This document shows positions 2,943 to 18,606 of a stretch of 21,112 nt of DNA, piece after piece; positions within the stretch are counted from its first letter, which is position 1, and each line of letters begins with the position of its first letter. A model generated the notes under the pieces. That model made no database searches, was not told where the DNA came from, and saw nothing but the letters and a program-made list of their open reading frames with translations. Source of the DNA: a virus; the IMG/VR virus record IMGVR_UViG_3300048694_000935, positions 1 to 21,112 of that record; one strand, written 5' to 3'. Both the position numbers and the translations under genes were made by a program.

Positions 2943-2950
2943 TATAAATA
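2943..2950 (+). promoter_or_regulatory. T4-type late promoter of the superoxide dismutase gene
   Basis: Perfect TATAAATA. With T4 spacing the transcript would start near 2956, one base before the ATG at 2957, so the late mRNA would be essentially leaderless. Confidence 0.6.
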
Positions 2951-2956
2951 CGCTGT

Positions 2957-3499
2957 ATGTATAACTTTATTAAAACTATCGTTGAAGGACGGACTCCTAA
3001 AACTCTTGAGCGTATAAAATTGCCCTATGCCTTAGATGGGCTGGGCCGTAGTCTAAGCAAACGAGCCGTAAATTATCACTATAACAAACTATATAAAGCC
3101 TATTGTGATCGCTATAATGCCGGCGAAGGTGATTTAGATTTTAACGAATCTGGAGCATTCCTCCATGCCAAATATTTTAGCCAATTTACCGCACCCAAAG
3201 GTAATAATACACCGACTGGTGCTTGTTTAAATTTCATCAATGAATCTTTTGATAGCTTTGAAAACTTTAAAGATAGATTTTTGAAAGTGGCTATGGCTGT
3301 TCAAGGCAGCGGATGGGTATATCTTGCCCGTAATGGCGAAATCAAAACTATCACTAACCATCAGATCAAGAACGATATTGTTCTACTAATTGACTGGTGG
3401 GAGCACTCCTTCCAATTTGATTTTGAAAATGATAAGGAAAAATATTTGGAAGGTCAATGGCGTATCATTGATTGGAGTGTAATAGAACAGCGACTATAA
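2957..3499 (+). CDS. Mn/Fe superoxide dismutase-like protein
   Basis: 180 aa, slightly shorter than the usual 190-210. The family fold is visible from LPYALDGLG (22-30) to the C-terminal Trp/Ile-rich helix. All four metal ligands are present: His41 (in NYHYNK), His70 (in FLHAKYF), Asp146 and His150 (in DWWEH). The gateway Tyr (Tyr49) is kept, but the two histidines that follow the first ligand in most members are Leu45 and Tyr46. Gly66 together with Gln136 (in TNHQ) is the Mn-type arrangement of the second-sphere Gln rather than the Fe-type. It should convert superoxide to H2O2 and O2. The N-terminal extension MYNFIKTIVEGR looks like a capsid-targeting peptide with an I-V-E protease site, so the enzyme may be packaged. 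No Shine-Dalgarno site is visible. Fold and ligands are seen; activity and location are inferred. Confidence 0.85.
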   Translation: MYNFIKTIVEGRTPKTLERIKLPYALDGLGRSLSKRAVNYHYNKLYKAYCDRYNAGEGDLDFNESGAFLHAKYFSQFTAPKGNNTPTGACLNFINESFDSFENFKDRFLKVAMAVQGSGWVYLARNGEIKTITNHQIKNDIVLLIDWWEHSFQFDFENDKEKYLEGQWRIIDWSVIEQRL

Positions 3500-12167: not shown

Positions 12168-14516
12168 ATGATCACTGTGGTCAAACGCAATGGAGGCCGC
12201 GTTCCTCTAGATATCTCTAAAATTCAAAGACAAGTAGCAAATGCATGTCGAGGTATCGAAGGCGTTAGTCCTAGTATGATTGAAATTAATGCCCAAATAG
12301 AACTACACGATGGCATTAGTACAAAAACCATAGATGAATTACTATTAAAGGCTATGGTTAATTTGATCGACGAGACAGAAAATCCAGAAATACATAATGT
12401 AAATTATCAATATGTAGCTGGCCGGCAACGTGTTAGTATGCTGCGTAAAGAAGTTTATGGTACATATGCTCCTCCTAAACTCTATGACATAGTAAAGAAG
12501 AATATTGAGTTAGGAATGTATACTCCAGATCTTCTTACTTGGTATACAGAAGCAGAATGGAATATTATTGATTTATTCATCGACCATGATAAAGATCAAA
12601 ACTATACCTATGCGGCTATAGCACAACTGTGTGAAAAATATCTAGTGCAAAATCGTGCAACAGGTCAAATTTTTGAAACTCCACAAATTCGTTATGCCAT
12701 AGCAGCAGCTACAGCTTTTCATGCCGAGCCAAAAGAAACAAGATTAAAATATGTTAAAGAATATTATGAATGTGCGAGCGAGGGGCACTTTACTCTTGCT
12801 ACTCCTGTGCTTGCTGGCCTGGGCACTACAACTAAACAGTTTAGCAGTTGTGTCCTTATTAGCAGCGATGATACATTGGATTCAATATTCGCTGCCGGAG
12901 AAATGATGGCCAAATATGCTAGCAAACGAGCTGGCATTGGACTAGAGATTGGTCGTATTCGTCCACTAGGTGCTCCTATTCGTAATGGAGAAATTAAACA
13001 TACAGGAATGATCCCATTCCTTAAAAAATGGTTTGCAGATCTTCGAAGCTGTTCCCAAGGCGGGATTCGTAATGCTAGCTGTACCGTGACATTTCCAGTA
13101 TGGCATTACCAGTTCGAAGACCTCATCGTATTAAAAAATAATCAAGGCACTGAAGAAACCCGTGTGCGTCAAATGGACTATAGCGTGGTTGTAAATGCTA
13201 TGTTTTGGCGTCGTTATAAAAACGGAGAAACTATTACCTTATTTGATCCTCACGATGTTCCTGATTTGTATGAAGCATACTACAGAGACAGTAAAGAGTT
13301 TGAAAGGCTTTATCTTCAATATGAACAAGATAAGACAAAGAAGAAAAAAGTTGTATCGGCGGATGAAATATTCAAAAATGGCATACTTAAAGAACGTACT
13401 GATACTGGTCGCATCTATCTTGTATTCATCGACAACGTCATCAATCAAGGCCCGTTTGATACAACCCTTGATCCCATATATCAATCAAACCTATGCCAGG
13501 AGATATTATTACCCACTAAACCTTTCCAAAGAATTGAAGATCCTAATGGACGAATCGCTCTTTGTACTCTTGGGTCGATAAACTGGGGTGCTTTCCGTAA
13601 TCCTCAAGATATGCGTAAGGCTTGCCGTGTATTAGTCCGTAGTCTTAGCAATCTATTAAATTATCAAGATTTCTTAAGTGTTCAAAGTAAGCTAGCCAAT
13701 GAAGACTTTGAACCACTAGGTGTTGGCATTACTAACCTAGCCTACTGGCACGCTCGACGTAGTTTAAAATATGGTCAAGCAGATAGTCTAGCAGAAGTTA
13801 AACGCTGGATGGAACATCAGGCATACTATCTAACTGAAATGAGTGTTGAACTAGCACAAGAGCGTGGCGCCTGTAAGCGCAGTGACCATACTTGGTATGG
13901 ACGCGGAGTATTTCCTTGGGAAAGAAGATCTAATGGTGTTAACGAACTCGCAGATTTTACACCTAGTCTAGATTGGGAACCTTTACGGGAAAAGATGAAA
14001 CAGCATGGAATTAGAAATGGTACATTAATGGCTGTCGCTCCGGTTGAGTCTAGCAGTGTAGTTTTAAACAGTACCAATGGCATCGAAATGCCAATGGAAT
14101 TAATTTCAGTTAAAGAAAGCAAAGCAGGAAGTTTTGTACAGGTAGTGCCCGATTATAAGAGATTAAAAAATCGCTATCAATTAATGTGGGATCAAAAAGA
14201 CTGTGTTGATTATTTGAAAACCGCAGCAGTACTAGCAGTATACATTGATCAAAGTTTAAGCACCAACACCTTCTATAACCCTGCACATTTTAAGGATGCT
14301 AAGGTACCGGGCACACTAGTTGCTAAAAATCTTATGTTGGCCTATAAGTGGGGTTTGAAGACCATATACTATAGTTTGATTAACAAAGTGGGTGCAAAAG
14401 CAGGTGTTACAAATACAAATTTAGTTTCTCAACCTACTACAAGTTTTATTACCACTAACGATGCTGTAGATAAAATAGAAATCATCGACGACGATTGCGA
14501 AGCTTGTAAATTATAA
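12168..14516 (+). CDS. nrdA: Ribonucleoside-diphosphate reductase alpha subunit, class Ia-type
   Basis: 782 aa, full length. Residues 1-95 form the ATP-cone (VVKRNGGRVPLDISKIQ), the allosteric activity site. The catalytic centre is complete: Cys228 (SSCVLI), Asn441-Cys443-Glu445 (SNLCQE), Cys466 (ALCTLGS), Tyr734-Tyr735 (radical-transfer pair) and the C-terminal CEAC (777-780), which is re-reduced by glutaredoxin or thioredoxin. It reduces ribonucleoside diphosphates to deoxy forms with NrdB, in the cytoplasm. It starts a run through nrdB and the glutaredoxin gene with gaps of only a few bases. The leader has a poor ribosome binding site (AAGAAAG). No intein or intron is seen. Confidence 0.97.
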   Translation: MITVVKRNGGRVPLDISKIQRQVANACRGIEGVSPSMIEINAQIELHDGISTKTIDELLLKAMVNLIDETENPEIHNVNYQYVAGRQRVSMLRKEVYGTYAPPKLYDIVKKNIELGMYTPDLLTWYTEAEWNIIDLFIDHDKDQNYTYAAIAQLCEKYLVQNRATGQIFETPQIRYAIAAATAFHAEPKETRLKYVKEYYECASEGHFTLATPVLAGLGTTTKQFSSCVLISSDDTLDSIFAAGEMMAKYASKRAGIGLEIGRIRPLGAPIRNGEIKHTGMIPFLKKWFADLRSCSQGGIRNASCTVTFPVWHYQFEDLIVLKNNQGTEETRVRQMDYSVVVNAMFWRRYKNGETITLFDPHDVPDLYEAYYRDSKEFERLYLQYEQDKTKKKKVVSADEIFKNGILKERTDTGRIYLVFIDNVINQGPFDTTLDPIYQSNLCQEILLPTKPFQRIEDPNGRIALCTLGSINWGAFRNPQDMRKACRVLVRSLSNLLNYQDFLSVQSKLANEDFEPLGVGITNLAYWHARRSLKYGQADSLAEVKRWMEHQAYYLTEMSVELAQERGACKRSDHTWYGRGVFPWERRSNGVNELADFTPSLDWEPLREKMKQHGIRNGTLMAVAPVESSSVVLNSTNGIEMPMELISVKESKAGSFVQVVPDYKRLKNRYQLMWDQKDCVDYLKTAAVLAVYIDQSLSTNTFYNPAHFKDAKVPGTLVAKNLMLAYKWGLKTIYYSLINKVGAKAGVTNTNLVSQPTTSFITTNDAVDKIEIIDDDCEACKL

Positions 14517-14524
14517 GGTGTAAA

Positions 14525-15292
14525 ATGAAAATAGCGATTTATGGTGATAGTTTCGGTGTATCGCCCTCAGTAAAAAGGAAAGATCCGTGGTATAATATTT
14601 TAGCAGATATGTTCGATGCGGATGTTAAAAGTTTCGCACATCCGGGCAGCTCAAATTTTTATAATTACAATAATTTTTTAAAATATAATCAAGATTTCGA
14701 TTTAAATATTTTTATCCATACATCTTCTTTAAAATACCCAGTGCCTGTTAAGTTAAGCAATATAAACGGTAAAAGTTTTGAAAATATGTGGCCCAGTAGT
14801 CTTTCGGCAGTAGAATTTTATAGAGACGAATGGTTTGAAGGTCCGATGGATCAAATGTCAAAAGAATTTCTAAATCAGTTGGCTGCATGGTATATTGTAT
14901 CAGATGACAGCTTTATGTCATTGACCGTGGAACTTATGATGAATGATATGGAATCTCGTAGGCCAAATACAATTTTTCTTGCCAGTTTTCCATACAATTC
15001 TACTTGGGAAAACAATCCGTATTACAATACTACTAAAAGAAATAGAACAGAAAAATTAGGTATAAGGTTTATTGATTTCGTTAGGTCCCAGTCACGTGGA
15101 TTAGGTATACAAGGCGAAGAACACACTTGGCAAGAAAATCTTGAAATTATGTCTTGTCATTTTACTCCTGAAACTAATGCGTTATTTGCACAAGCGGTAA
15201 AGAATTTCATCGATACTGGTAAATTGACTCCACCTCCGGATAAAATTGATCATTTGTACGGAGTAGAATACTATTTTATAAAATCAAAATAA
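14525..15292 (+). CDS. SGNH-hydrolase-like protein, copy 1
   Basis: 255 aa. [14 protein letters not shown] carries the GDS block I with nucleophile Ser9. [12 protein letters not shown] (38-49) is a block II-like region, and FIHTSS (63-68) sits where block III would fall. [15 protein letters not shown] holds the likely catalytic His212, but the Asp three residues before it, usual in SGNH block V, is not present (IMSCH instead). That loss or change makes activity uncertain. AAGGTG lies before the ATG. The second copy (16523) shares the GDSF start, HP.(T/S)S.FY, DLNIF and CHFT.ETN..FA, so the two are paralogs. They flank the isocitrate lyase gene. Substrate unknown; such enzymes are usually esterases, lipases or acyl-carbohydrate deacetylases. 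Confidence 0.75.
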
Positions 15293-15302
15293 AAGGAAAA
15301 AA

Positions 15303-16520
15303 ATGAAAAAGAGAAATTACACACTGGACACAGTAAGAAGGCTACAAGGTAGCGTACAGATTGAACACACACTGGCAAAGCGAGGAGCACATAAACTACG
15401 TGAACTACTTGAAAAAGAACCATATGTCGCCACCCTGGGTGCTTACAATGGACAAATGGCAGTACAACACGCTAAGGCAGGGTTGAAGGCAATTTATCTA
15501 AGCGGTTGGCAAGTTGCCGGTGCCAATAATACAGCAAATCAAACCTATCCTGATCAAAGCTTATATCCTGTTGACAGCGTACCACGTGTTGTTAAAGGTA
15601 TTAATAATGCTTTCCGCCGTGCTGATCAAATCCAATATAGCGAAGGTACTCCAATCGGAGAACATCCGTTAGATTATTTCTTACCAATCGTGGCAGATGC
15701 CGAAGCAGGTTTTGGTGGTGCACTAAATGCCTATGAGCTTATGTATCATATGATTGAAGCTGGTGCTGCTGGTGTTCATTTTGAAGATCAACTTGCTAGT
15801 GAAAAGAAATGCGGTCACTTGGGTGGTAAGGTTCTTGTCCCTACTAGTCAAATGATCCGTACATTGAACGCTGCACGACTAGCCGCAGATGTAGCCGGTG
15901 TTGACACAGTTATCATGGCACGTACAGATGCTGAAGCAGCAACATTAATTACCAGCAACCACGATCCACTAGATAAGGATTTTGTTATCGATGAGCGAAC
16001 TGAAGAAGGTTTTTACAAATTTAAAAATGGCCTTGAGGCTTGTATTGCAAGAGGTCTTGCTTATGCCCCTTACGCTGATCTCCTTTGGTTTGAAACTAGC
16101 ACACCTGATCTCGCACAGGCTAAGAAATTCGCAGATTCTATCCATGCTGAGTTTCCGGACCAAATGCTTGCTTATAATTGCAGTCCTAGCTTTAATTGGC
16201 GCAAGTATCTTAGTAGAGAAGAATGTGTAGCATATCAAAGTGAATTAGCCAAATTAGGTTACAAGTTCCAATTCATTACATTGGCAGGATTCCATAGTGT
16301 AAACTTAGCAACATTTAGTCTTGCTGAGGCTTATGCTAAAGAAGGTATGGGAGCATATAGTGATTTGCAACAATTAGAATTTGCTGCCGAATCTCGTGGA
16401 TTCACAACAGTTAAACATCAACGTGAAGTAGGTGTTGGCTATTTTGATTTAATCAGTGAAGCAGTTGGTGCAGTAAGCACTGTGGCTAATAAGACAAGCA
16501 CAGAACACGATCAATTTTAA
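15303..16520 (+). CDS. aceA: Isocitrate lyase
   Basis: 405 aa. It aligns from [10 protein letters not shown] through to the C-terminal STEHDQF, the counterpart of the STEESQF end of E. coli AceA (434 aa), with a shorter N-terminus. Active-site features are all present: KKCGH (168-172, catalytic Cys170), ADAEAGFGG (131-139, metal-binding Asp), ARTDA (206-210), ETSTPD (264-269), NCSPSFNW (292-299) and TLAG (326-329). It splits isocitrate into glyoxylate and succinate, the first step of the glyoxylate shunt. AAGGA precedes the ATG at good distance. Codon use does not stand out from neighbours, suggesting long residence in phage genomes. No malate synthase or phosphoenolpyruvate gene is seen, so glyoxylate would rely on host enzymes. 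Identity is certain; benefit to the phage is inferred. Confidence 0.96.
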
Positions 16521-16522
16521 TT

Positions 16523-17158
16523 ATGAAATTAGGAATTTACGGTGATAGTTTTGCTACTGGATCCGCATTTATAGAAAATTGGTATGACCACCTTGCAAAA
16601 ATGCTAGGAGGATCTGCCACATCCTATGGGCATCCGGCTACCAGTACATTCTATAGTTTTGAAATTTTTAAGGAAAAATATAAAAAGTACGATCTAAATA
16701 TTTTTTTAGTTACACATAACGATAAAAATTTATCTAAGAGAGATGTAACTGTGTTAAATGACCTTAGGTCTTGGTTCTTATCTTCAGACGAATCGTTTTT
16801 AAAAGTTGCACAAGATCTAATTGTAGACGAAATTAGACGACTTTGTCCTGATGTTATTTTAATACCTTGCTGGTCTAAAGATAGTTCAATGTCTACTTCA
16901 AAACACGCTGAATTAAATATAAAAGAAACAGGAAATTGCGAAACATTTTTTCATCGACAACTTGAATGGTTTGGGATCTATGATTTGCCGAGCCTTCAAG
17001 AAAACCCAAAGAAAGTTGGTTGCCATTTCACAGTAGAAACAAATAAAGCTTTTGCTGAATGTGTATACAATTTAATAAAATATAATACATCTTTTGAATG
17101 CCCGGCCACTATTCCTCATCGTCAAAATTTTGATTTCTATTTTAAAAAAATAATATGA
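16523..17158 (+). CDS. SGNH-hydrolase-like protein, copy 2
   Basis: 211 aa, a shorter paralog of the gene at 14525. MKLGIYGDSFATGSAF gives Ser9 in the GDS block. GHPATSTFYSF, DLNIFLVTHND, then GCHFTVETNKAFAECV with likely catalytic His168 follow the same order. As in copy 1, the residue three before the His is not Asp. Copy 1 has an extra segment of about 45 residues in the middle. There is no ribosome binding site; the ATG comes two bases after the isocitrate lyase stop. Its TGA overlaps the nrdB ATG (ATGA), so nrdB translation depends on this gene. The arrangement places one copy on each side of aceA. Confidence 0.75.
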   Translation: MKLGIYGDSFATGSAFIENWYDHLAKMLGGSATSYGHPATSTFYSFEIFKEKYKKYDLNIFLVTHNDKNLSKRDVTVLNDLRSWFLSSDESFLKVAQDLIVDEIRRLCPDVILIPCWSKDSSMSTSKHAELNIKETGNCETFFHRQLEWFGIYDLPSLQENPKKVGCHFTVETNKAFAECVYNLIKYNTSFECPATIPHRQNFDFYFKKII

Positions 17159-18255
17159 GTAAAGCACAATACGATTTTAGTAAACCAACGAACTACCTTA
17201 AACGTAGAATGTTCTTGGATCCGGAAGGACCAGTCACGGTTCAACGTTTTGAAGAAGTTAAATATCCTAAACTTCAAAAGTTTGAAGAACTAGCACGGGG
17301 GTTCTTTTGGGTACCTGAGGAGATTAGTCTTACTAAAGATAAGATGGATCATAAGGAAGCCAGTGACGCTGTTAAGCATATCTTTACCAGCAATCTTCTA
17401 CGGCAAACAGCCTTAGATAGTATTCAAGGTCGGGCACCGTTTCAAGTATTCGGACCAGTTATTAGTATTCCTGAATTGGAAGCACTAACATTGACTTGGA
17501 GCTTTTTTGAAACCAGTATTCATAGTAAAAGTTATAGCCATATTATAAGGAATGTGTATGGAGTTCCTAAAGAAGAATTTAACAAAATTCACGATACTGC
17601 TGAAATTGCAGGAATGGCTGCAAATATTGGTCGATACTACGAAGACTTACATATGCTTAATTGTAGAAAAGAGTTGGGCGAAGAAATTTCGGTCCACGAT
17701 CACAAACGAGCAATTTGGCTTGCATTACACGCCTCCTATGCACTCGAGGCGTTACGCTTCATGGTGTCTTTTGCCACATCATTGGCTATGGTAGAAAATA
17801 AAATCTATATCGGAAATGGAAATATTATTAGTCTGATACTGCAAGATGAAATCCTACACTCTGAATGGACTGCTTGGCTAATTAATAATCTTATTAAAGA
17901 CGATCCAGATTTTATTTCCATTGAACAAGAATGTAAGGAAGAAGTATATTCTATGTATACGTCTGTAATTGAAGAAGAAAAAGCCTGGGCAGATTATCTT
18001 TTTAGAAAAGGTGTGGTTATTGGTCTTAATGCAAATATCCTTAAAGATTTTGTAGATTATACTGCTTTTACCAAGCTAAAAGATATTGGAATTAAATACC
18101 TGGCAGAACATCCAAAAACTACACCTATACCTTGGTTTAATAAACACGTTAATATTAATAAGAAACAAACAGCATTACAGGAAAATGAAAGTACAAATTA
18201 TGTTATCGGTGTAATGTCAGAACAGGTAGACAACGAAGAGCTACCAGATCTCTAA
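17155..18255 (+). CDS. nrdB: Ribonucleoside-diphosphate reductase beta subunit, class I
   Basis: 366 aa. It provides the radical for NrdA. Metal ligands and radical Tyr are placed as Asp88, Glu119, His123, Tyr127, Glu198, Glu232 and His235, compared with Asp84, Glu115, His118, Tyr122, Glu204, Glu238 and His241 in E. coli NrdB. One residue is inserted between the second and third ligands: ETSIH here, ETIH in E. coli. The C-terminus (VDNEELPDL) is the acidic tail that binds the alpha subunit. The ATG overlaps the stop of the preceding SGNH-like gene and there is no separate ribosome binding site. Class I enzymes need oxygen, agreeing with an aerobic host. Confidence 0.95.
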   Translation: MSKAQYDFSKPTNYLKRRMFLDPEGPVTVQRFEEVKYPKLQKFEELARGFFWVPEEISLTKDKMDHKEASDAVKHIFTSNLLRQTALDSIQGRAPFQVFGPVISIPELEALTLTWSFFETSIHSKSYSHIIRNVYGVPKEEFNKIHDTAEIAGMAANIGRYYEDLHMLNCRKELGEEISVHDHKRAIWLALHASYALEALRFMVSFATSLAMVENKIYIGNGNIISLILQDEILHSEWTAWLINNLIKDDPDFISIEQECKEEVYSMYTSVIEEEKAWADYLFRKGVVIGLNANILKDFVDYTAFTKLKDIGIKYLAEHPKTTPIPWFNKHVNINKKQTALQENESTNYVIGVMSEQVDNEELPDL

Positions 18256-18378: not shown

Positions 18379-18606
18379 ATGCAAGCTATAGTATGGAGTA
18401 AATATCACTGCCCTTATTGCGACCAAGCTAAAATGTTACTTCAACAGCGAGGAATCGAATTCGAAGAACGTAAAATCGGTGATGGGTACACTAGGGAAGA
18501 ATTACTCGAAGCAGTACCCACTGCTAGAACAGTACCACAGATTTTTCTAGACGGAAAACTAATCGGTGGATTCACTGAATTAAAGGAATACTTCAATGGA
18601 AAATAA
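18379..18606 (+). CDS. nrdC: Glutaredoxin (NrdC-like)
   Basis: 75 aa, the small dithiol glutaredoxin size. The redox motif is CPYC (Cys11, Cys14). The cis-proline is Pro53 in TVPQIF, and Gly63-Gly64 in LIGGF binds the glutathione tail. This would re-reduce NrdA's C-terminal cysteine pair during deoxynucleotide synthesis, matching its place in the nrd operon. AAGGAG precedes the ATG within the end of the 37-aa gene. Its last codons overlap the next gene by 11 bases. The symbol follows the T4 name for the ribonucleotide-reductase-linked redoxin. Confidence 0.93.
   Translation: MQAIVWSKYHCPYCDQAKMLLQQRGIEFEERKIGDGYTREELLEAVPTARTVPQIFLDGKLIGGFTELKEYFNGK

Follow-up and report, generated by a model that had tools for sequence, protein, structure and literature searches.

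A phage Fe/Mn superoxide dismutase with a predicted capsid-targeting propeptide and a divergently oriented structured RNA beside its gene

Why should a phage carry a superoxide dismutase (SOD), and where might such an enzyme act during infection? These questions are raised by a 21,112-base IMG/VR virus fragment (the window) in which an open reading frame on the plus strand at 2957-3499, beginning with ATG, encodes a protein of 180 residues that had been read, from the letters alone, as an SOD with a possible capsid-targeting peptide. The chlorella virus PBCV-1 packages an SOD in its virion, but PBCV-1 is an algal virus and its SOD is of the Cu/Zn type, with an unrelated fold. A literature search of open-access papers found no report of an Fe/Mn SOD packaged in a phage.

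That the product of 2957-3499 is an Fe/Mn SOD, with predicted dismutase activity, is near certain from sequence and model. Both Fe/Mn SOD domains are recognized by Pfam (Sod_Fe_C, 4e-22; Sod_Fe_N, 5e-6), and many solved SODs are matched in PDB sequence and fold comparisons. An AlphaFold2 model built from 43 relatives has a mean pLDDT of 92.4, and its residues 15-180 adopt the two-domain SOD fold, aligning with solved SODs at Z ~24 and an rmsd of ~1.6-1.7 A. Residues 1-14 form a separate short helix, modeled with lower confidence, that has no counterpart in the solved SODs compared. The original identification of the gene is therefore borne out by the domain matches, the model and its likeness to solved structures. 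The protein shares with the bacterial Fe/Mn SODs (SodFM, PF00081/PF02777) the fold, the four metal ligands, the active-site Tyr and the dimer-interface Glu. It differs from them in its compactness, the alpha-hairpin being ~20-25 residues shorter, in the replacement of both His that close the H-x-x-x-H-H motif, in a propeptide-like N-terminal extension and in belonging to a clade only ~30% identical to cellular SODs.

The metal ligands His41 (3077-3079), His70 (3164-3166), Asp146 and His150, which the original prediction had listed as kept, show no variation in the 43 phage relatives; the last two lie, together with the dimer-interface Glu, in the invariant DWWEH stretch Asp146-Trp-Trp-Glu-His150 (3392-3406). 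Tyr49, the equivalent of Tyr34 of bacterial SOD, is likewise invariant in these relatives, as are Gly66, Trp120, His135, Trp148 and Glu149. The reported substitution of two His after the first ligand also holds for the family, in that all phage homologues have Leu45 where bacterial enzymes have the first His of the H-x-x-x-H-H pair, and at position 46, occupied by the last His in those enzymes, they have Tyr or Ala. The assignment to the Mn type, drawn from Gly66 and Gln136, was mistaken. Gly66 is indeed constant, but position 136, taken to be the second-sphere Gln, may be Q, E or K among the phage relatives, and a profile-profile alignment with cellular SODs places Asn134-His135 on Asn145-Gln146 of SodA. 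Since His135 (3359-3361) is both invariant and aligned with Gln146, and its neighbor 136 is variable, His135 is predicted to be the water-coordinating second-sphere residue. Alignment with bacterial and phage SODs thus yields an enzyme of the His type, with Leu144 (3386-3388) at the metal-preference position XD-2, which is Leu in the phage SODs and Ile in some. In the SodFM survey, enzymes with a C-terminal water-coordinating His were mostly Fe-preferring (9/13), and Gly or Ala at XD-2 was associated with Mn (PMC10172142). Given the C-terminal His and the Leu or Ile at XD-2, a Mn-specific enzyme is not the expectation; these indicator residues, which are statistical, lead us to expect Fe-preferring or cambialistic metal use.

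The motif residues also set the phage proteins apart from named SodFM groups. The Mn-type SodFM1, with its C-terminal Gln, is ruled out by the invariant His135 in the Gln146 position. A C-terminal His is found in most members of SodFM3 and SodFM4, the latter lacking the last His of the motif (PMC10172142), and the phage SOD has this His as His135. SodFM3, however, requires an intact H-x-x-x-H-H where the phage SODs have H-x-x-x-L-Y/A, and SodFM4, judged on motif residues, loses only the last His, whereas the phage enzymes have lost the first His of the pair as well (Leu45) and carry a bulky Leu or Ile at XD-2. Replacement of the gateway His and loss of its usual Tyr partner might be taken to mean that the protein sits in the head as a poor catalyst with a mainly structural, DNA-binding or metal-binding function, and the invariance of Leu45 and the variability of residue 153, the partner position, across the phage family would fit such a role. 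We hold this to be very improbable, for the ligands, Tyr49, His135, Trp148 and Glu149 are all invariant, and variants of His30 in human MnSOD have been solved and studied (as judged from structure titles), which indicates that the SOD fold tolerates a change of the gateway His.

Relatives of this SOD occur in at least 595 viral contigs, mostly environmental phage fragments. The same scan of 84,980 cellular genomes returned, besides two short matches on MAG contigs (Polaromonas, Methylophilaceae), only SODs of ~30% identity. Among isolated phages, members of the family, 38-39% identical, are found in the PA5oct-like Pseudomonas jumbo phages and in Vibrio phage 2.275.O, where these Mn/Fe SODs are annotated only as SOD or as hypothetical protein and neither a tag nor an RNA appears in the annotation; the window itself gave no match when compared by BLAST with isolated phages. 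Several SOD-holding "phage" records resemble bacterial contigs or contaminants, for example those with Salmonella and Acinetobacter chromosomal SOD genes, and were left out of the phage evidence.

The N-terminal extension of the window protein, MYNFIKTIVE (2957-2986), which is helical over residues 2-9 in the model, is a predicted 10-residue capsid-targeting propeptide with cleavage expected after Glu10, between 2986 and 2987. T4 gp21 cuts after L/I-X-E, and in the T4 capsid-targeting sequence (CTS) residues 4 and 7 serve targeting and residues 8 and 10 are required for processing (PMC9026906). A T4-type CTS is a propeptide of 10-20 residues ending in L/I-X-E, and the phage extension has this form, as a pattern only, with IVE closing at residue 10. 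As in the gp21-cleaved T4 proteins IPI-IPIII and Alt, a 10-residue N-terminal peptide ends in I-x-E before a small residue; compared with the IPII/IPIII propeptide as read from T4, MKTYQEFIAE/A (the slash marks the cleavage site), MYNFIKTIVE/G has an aromatic residue at position 4, Ile at 8 and Glu at 10, but Thr rather than Phe at the T4-critical position 7. Close relatives begin at the same Met, and an N-terminal extension is present on all examined phage homologues whose 5' end is intact, the exceptions being L078 and the protein of the Vibrio phage. A regular expression for [LIV]xE matches 65 of 70 distinct extensions, against an average of 25 for shuffled extensions, and 68 of 70 once three of the five misses, which were mis-cut or mis-started, are corrected. 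The Glu is followed by G, S, A, N or D in 64 of the 65. In a comparison of 267 close-relative pairs, dN/dS is lowest in residues 2-10 (0.035), intermediate in the enzyme core (0.076) and highest in the spacer that follows the Glu (0.17), as expected if tag and enzyme are conserved and the spacer between them is flexible.

The homologues that lack this N-terminal extension offer a separate observation. In L083 (5986-6555) and L078 (919-1479) the SOD bears a C-terminal extension instead; the copy of Vibrio phage 2.275.O ends in ...MLDE/SVNIRHLINFISK, an L-x-E site followed by a tag-like peptide that recalls the C-terminal processing of T4 Alt.

Related phages that carry the gene encode a protease of the gp21 type and other proteins with similar starts. 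A gp21-type protease (PF03420, Peptidase_S77), a further likeness to the T4 internal proteins, was found in 11 of 11 searched SOD-phage records of at least 200 kb and in four SOD-carrying records shorter than 200 kb; none was seen in the 21-kb window, itself a fragment. Starts resembling the T4 CTS, defined as M[KR]...[EDQN][FILY][ILVM]xE, were found in 29 of the 438 proteins that begin M[KR], and only 3 of 990 internal M[KR] sites match (odds ratio 23, p=1e-12). They are borne by 17 unrelated protein families in SOD phages, some of the SODs being among them (MKLNDFLIE/A, MKLHDFLTE/D), and their density is 3.2-fold higher within 2.5 kb of SOD (p = 0.003). In the window, the neighboring plus-strand open reading frame at 1217-1648 begins with such a tag, MRAKEFIYE/E, of a class seen in relatives. 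The SOD homologue of PA5oct begins MNDSIKKYISIAE/A, with an IAE/A site, and its GenBank entry carries an ESI-MS/MS note. Ribonucleotide reductase, thymidylate synthase and FtsH are also on the PA5oct mass spectrometry list, and since such metabolic enzymes are possible contaminants the note on the SOD is supportive only. Between the detected and the undetected PA5oct proteins no significant difference in the [LIV]xE motif was found.

A more ordinary account of these data is possible, although we are inclined to doubt it, namely that the SOD is an auxiliary metabolic enzyme of the cytosol late in infection, its N-terminal helix serving oligomerization or partner binding and the [LIV]xE residues lying in the interface. 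The extension is predicted to be helical, [LIV]xE alone is not diagnostic, and a search for the MYNFIK version of the tag on other proteins yielded no convincing case, so that this form is found on SOD alone. In six sequences, moreover, the bare motif [LIV]xE[AGSN] was not enriched at N-termini relative to inner windows, and the case for a tag accordingly rests on conservation, selection and the tag shared with other proteins rather than on the motif. An interface helix accounts less readily for a Glu that moves between residues 7 and 14 across the extensions yet stays within [LIV]xE before a small residue, or for the finding that constraint is weakest in the spacer behind it. Nor do the solved SODs compared match residues 1-14 of the model, and some homologues share a T4-CTS-like tag with unrelated proteins. 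Capsid targeting and cleavage of the SOD are therefore likely on sequence grounds. Of the tag first proposed, with its I-V-E cleavage site, what stands is the interpretation, through the conserved site, the selection on it, the protease of the relatives and the tagged neighbors; the motif by itself does not identify it.

The timing of expression is suggested by short elements ahead of the gene. A copy of TATAAATA, the T4 late-promoter consensus, lies on the plus strand at 2943-2950, 6 nt before the SOD ATG. The motif occurs four times in the window (2943-2950, 5702, 7384 and 19761), on the plus strand only, and three of the four copies are just ahead of called gene starts; in several relatives it is found near gene starts more often than permuted motifs are. 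TAAATA precedes the SOD ATG by 4-7 nt in 55 of 100 distinct SOD loci. If the element works as in T4, its position would make the SOD mRNA nearly leaderless.

Together these observations make it probable, in our judgment, that the phage expresses a catalytically competent SOD late in infection and packs it into its head. We infer that the enzyme would be expressed late, from the late-promoter-like element, and that its first ten residues would dock it on the prohead scaffold in the manner of a T4 CTS. The gp21-type protease of the phage would then cut after Ile-Val-Glu, releasing a mature enzyme that begins at Gly11 inside the capsid and that would be ejected with the phage DNA; its predicted activity may then benefit the phage by clearing superoxide from the surroundings of the entering genome or from the newly infected cell. 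If this is correct, phages bring a ready-made antioxidant enzyme into the cell together with their DNA, and redox stress at infection becomes a testable part of the phage-host conflict. The few kinds of cargo known to be packaged by the T4-type route would extend from anti-restriction proteins and an ADP-ribosyltransferase to redox enzymes, the predicted packaging of a redox enzyme being one difference from the T4 internal proteins, and the result would point to a general route to packaged effectors in uncultured phages.

The region before the gene contains a second element that was missed in the first reading and is the most novel part of the locus. A conserved non-coding block (2822-2930) is found just ahead of the SOD gene; it corresponds to an RNA of ~100 nt which, folded on the minus strand with its 5' end near 2930, comprises an outer stem P1, a stem P2, a hairpin P3, a weakly aligned P4 and a pseudoknot P5. 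In 37 RNA sequences, changes on both sides of a pair were counted in 114 cells, compared with 42 in shuffles, and affect 22 of the 29 pairs; slid versions of the fold drop to 6-32 cells. Pairing in the same sequences reaches 97% in P1, 100% in P2 and 98.6% in P5. P4 is the weakest helix, 53% paired, and stems of 4-8 bp can be drawn for it sequence by sequence, without a control. The block was considered as a tRNA and as a known RNA and rejected as either: ARAGORN found no match, and the Rfam 15 covariance models gave none at gathering nor at E up to 5. A BLAST comparison of the RNA with isolated phages was likewise without a match. The SOD-linked RNA, whose structure covaries strongly and which belongs to no known family, is previously undescribed and offers a concrete new target.

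The linkage of this RNA to SOD emerged when 2.9 million viral contigs were scanned twice for DNA patterns that did not include SOD. The wider scan gave 60 contigs. SOD lies no more than 40 nt from the RNA in 58 of them and 518 nt away in one, and the remaining contig ends within the first part of the SOD gene, so that SOD adjoins the RNA in all 60. The RNA accompanies the gene in many of the phage fragments and is absent from many other SOD loci, and among SOD-phage genome tiles totalling 1.55 Mb its sole match was the SOD-adjacent copy of one genome (G001).

A distance of only 11-28 nt between the RNA and the SOD start in nearly every case would be natural for a cis-acting, riboswitch-like leader of the SOD mRNA. 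Three observations make this unlikely. In P1, P2 and P5, G-U pairs outnumber A-C mismatches by 18 to 1 when read on the strand opposite SOD, and this excess indicates that the RNA most likely runs opposite to the gene. The RNA lies opposite SOD in 54 of 59 scored loci, being on the same strand in five. Finally, its own TAAATA stands 4-7 nt before the RNA 5' end in 49 of 49 distinct loci; in the window this late-promoter-like element is at 2935-2940 on the minus strand, 4 nt upstream of the 5' end. An orientation that is not fixed, combined with a promoter-like element of its own, makes an independent RNA more probable than a leader, and in most RNA-bearing loci its transcription apparently starts at a late promoter and runs away from SOD. 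Given that it is found in both orientations relative to SOD, it is most likely a trans-acting or virion-associated non-coding RNA. Tentatively, the two elements may form a single late locus, in which a head-packaged, protease-matured SOD is accompanied by a pseudoknotted RNA from a divergent late promoter that would act with the enzyme, either within virus particles or within infected cells; such a pairing, for which we would claim only a modest chance, would constitute an undescribed class of phage system.

Turned-round copies of the RNA, codirectional with SOD, are seen in L217, L227, L216, L339, L342, L343, L352 and L356, and these retain the structure and their own TAAATA.

Other genes of the window, all on the plus strand, also deserve mention. 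A full-length isocitrate lyase (15303-16520; NCBIfam equivalog, 675 bits) lies within a ribonucleotide reductase operon composed of nrdA (12168-14516), nrdB (17155-18255) and glutaredoxin (18379-18606). Among isolated phages it has a clear homologue only in Phage C48C1 (63%, annotated as hypothetical), and none was found in 15 SOD-carrying relatives. It is flanked by two related-looking open reading frames (14525-15292 and 16523-17158) that both start MK.[AG]IYGDSF and have no Pfam match. Closer to SOD, the product of 1648-2820, which starts MRAREF, fuses a HAD/polynucleotide-kinase-like domain to a putative metallopeptidase (AHELCHH), and relatives carry tagged, separate versions of these two domains near SOD. 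The gene at 241-1065 encodes a DNA/RNA non-specific endonuclease with an apparent signal peptide.
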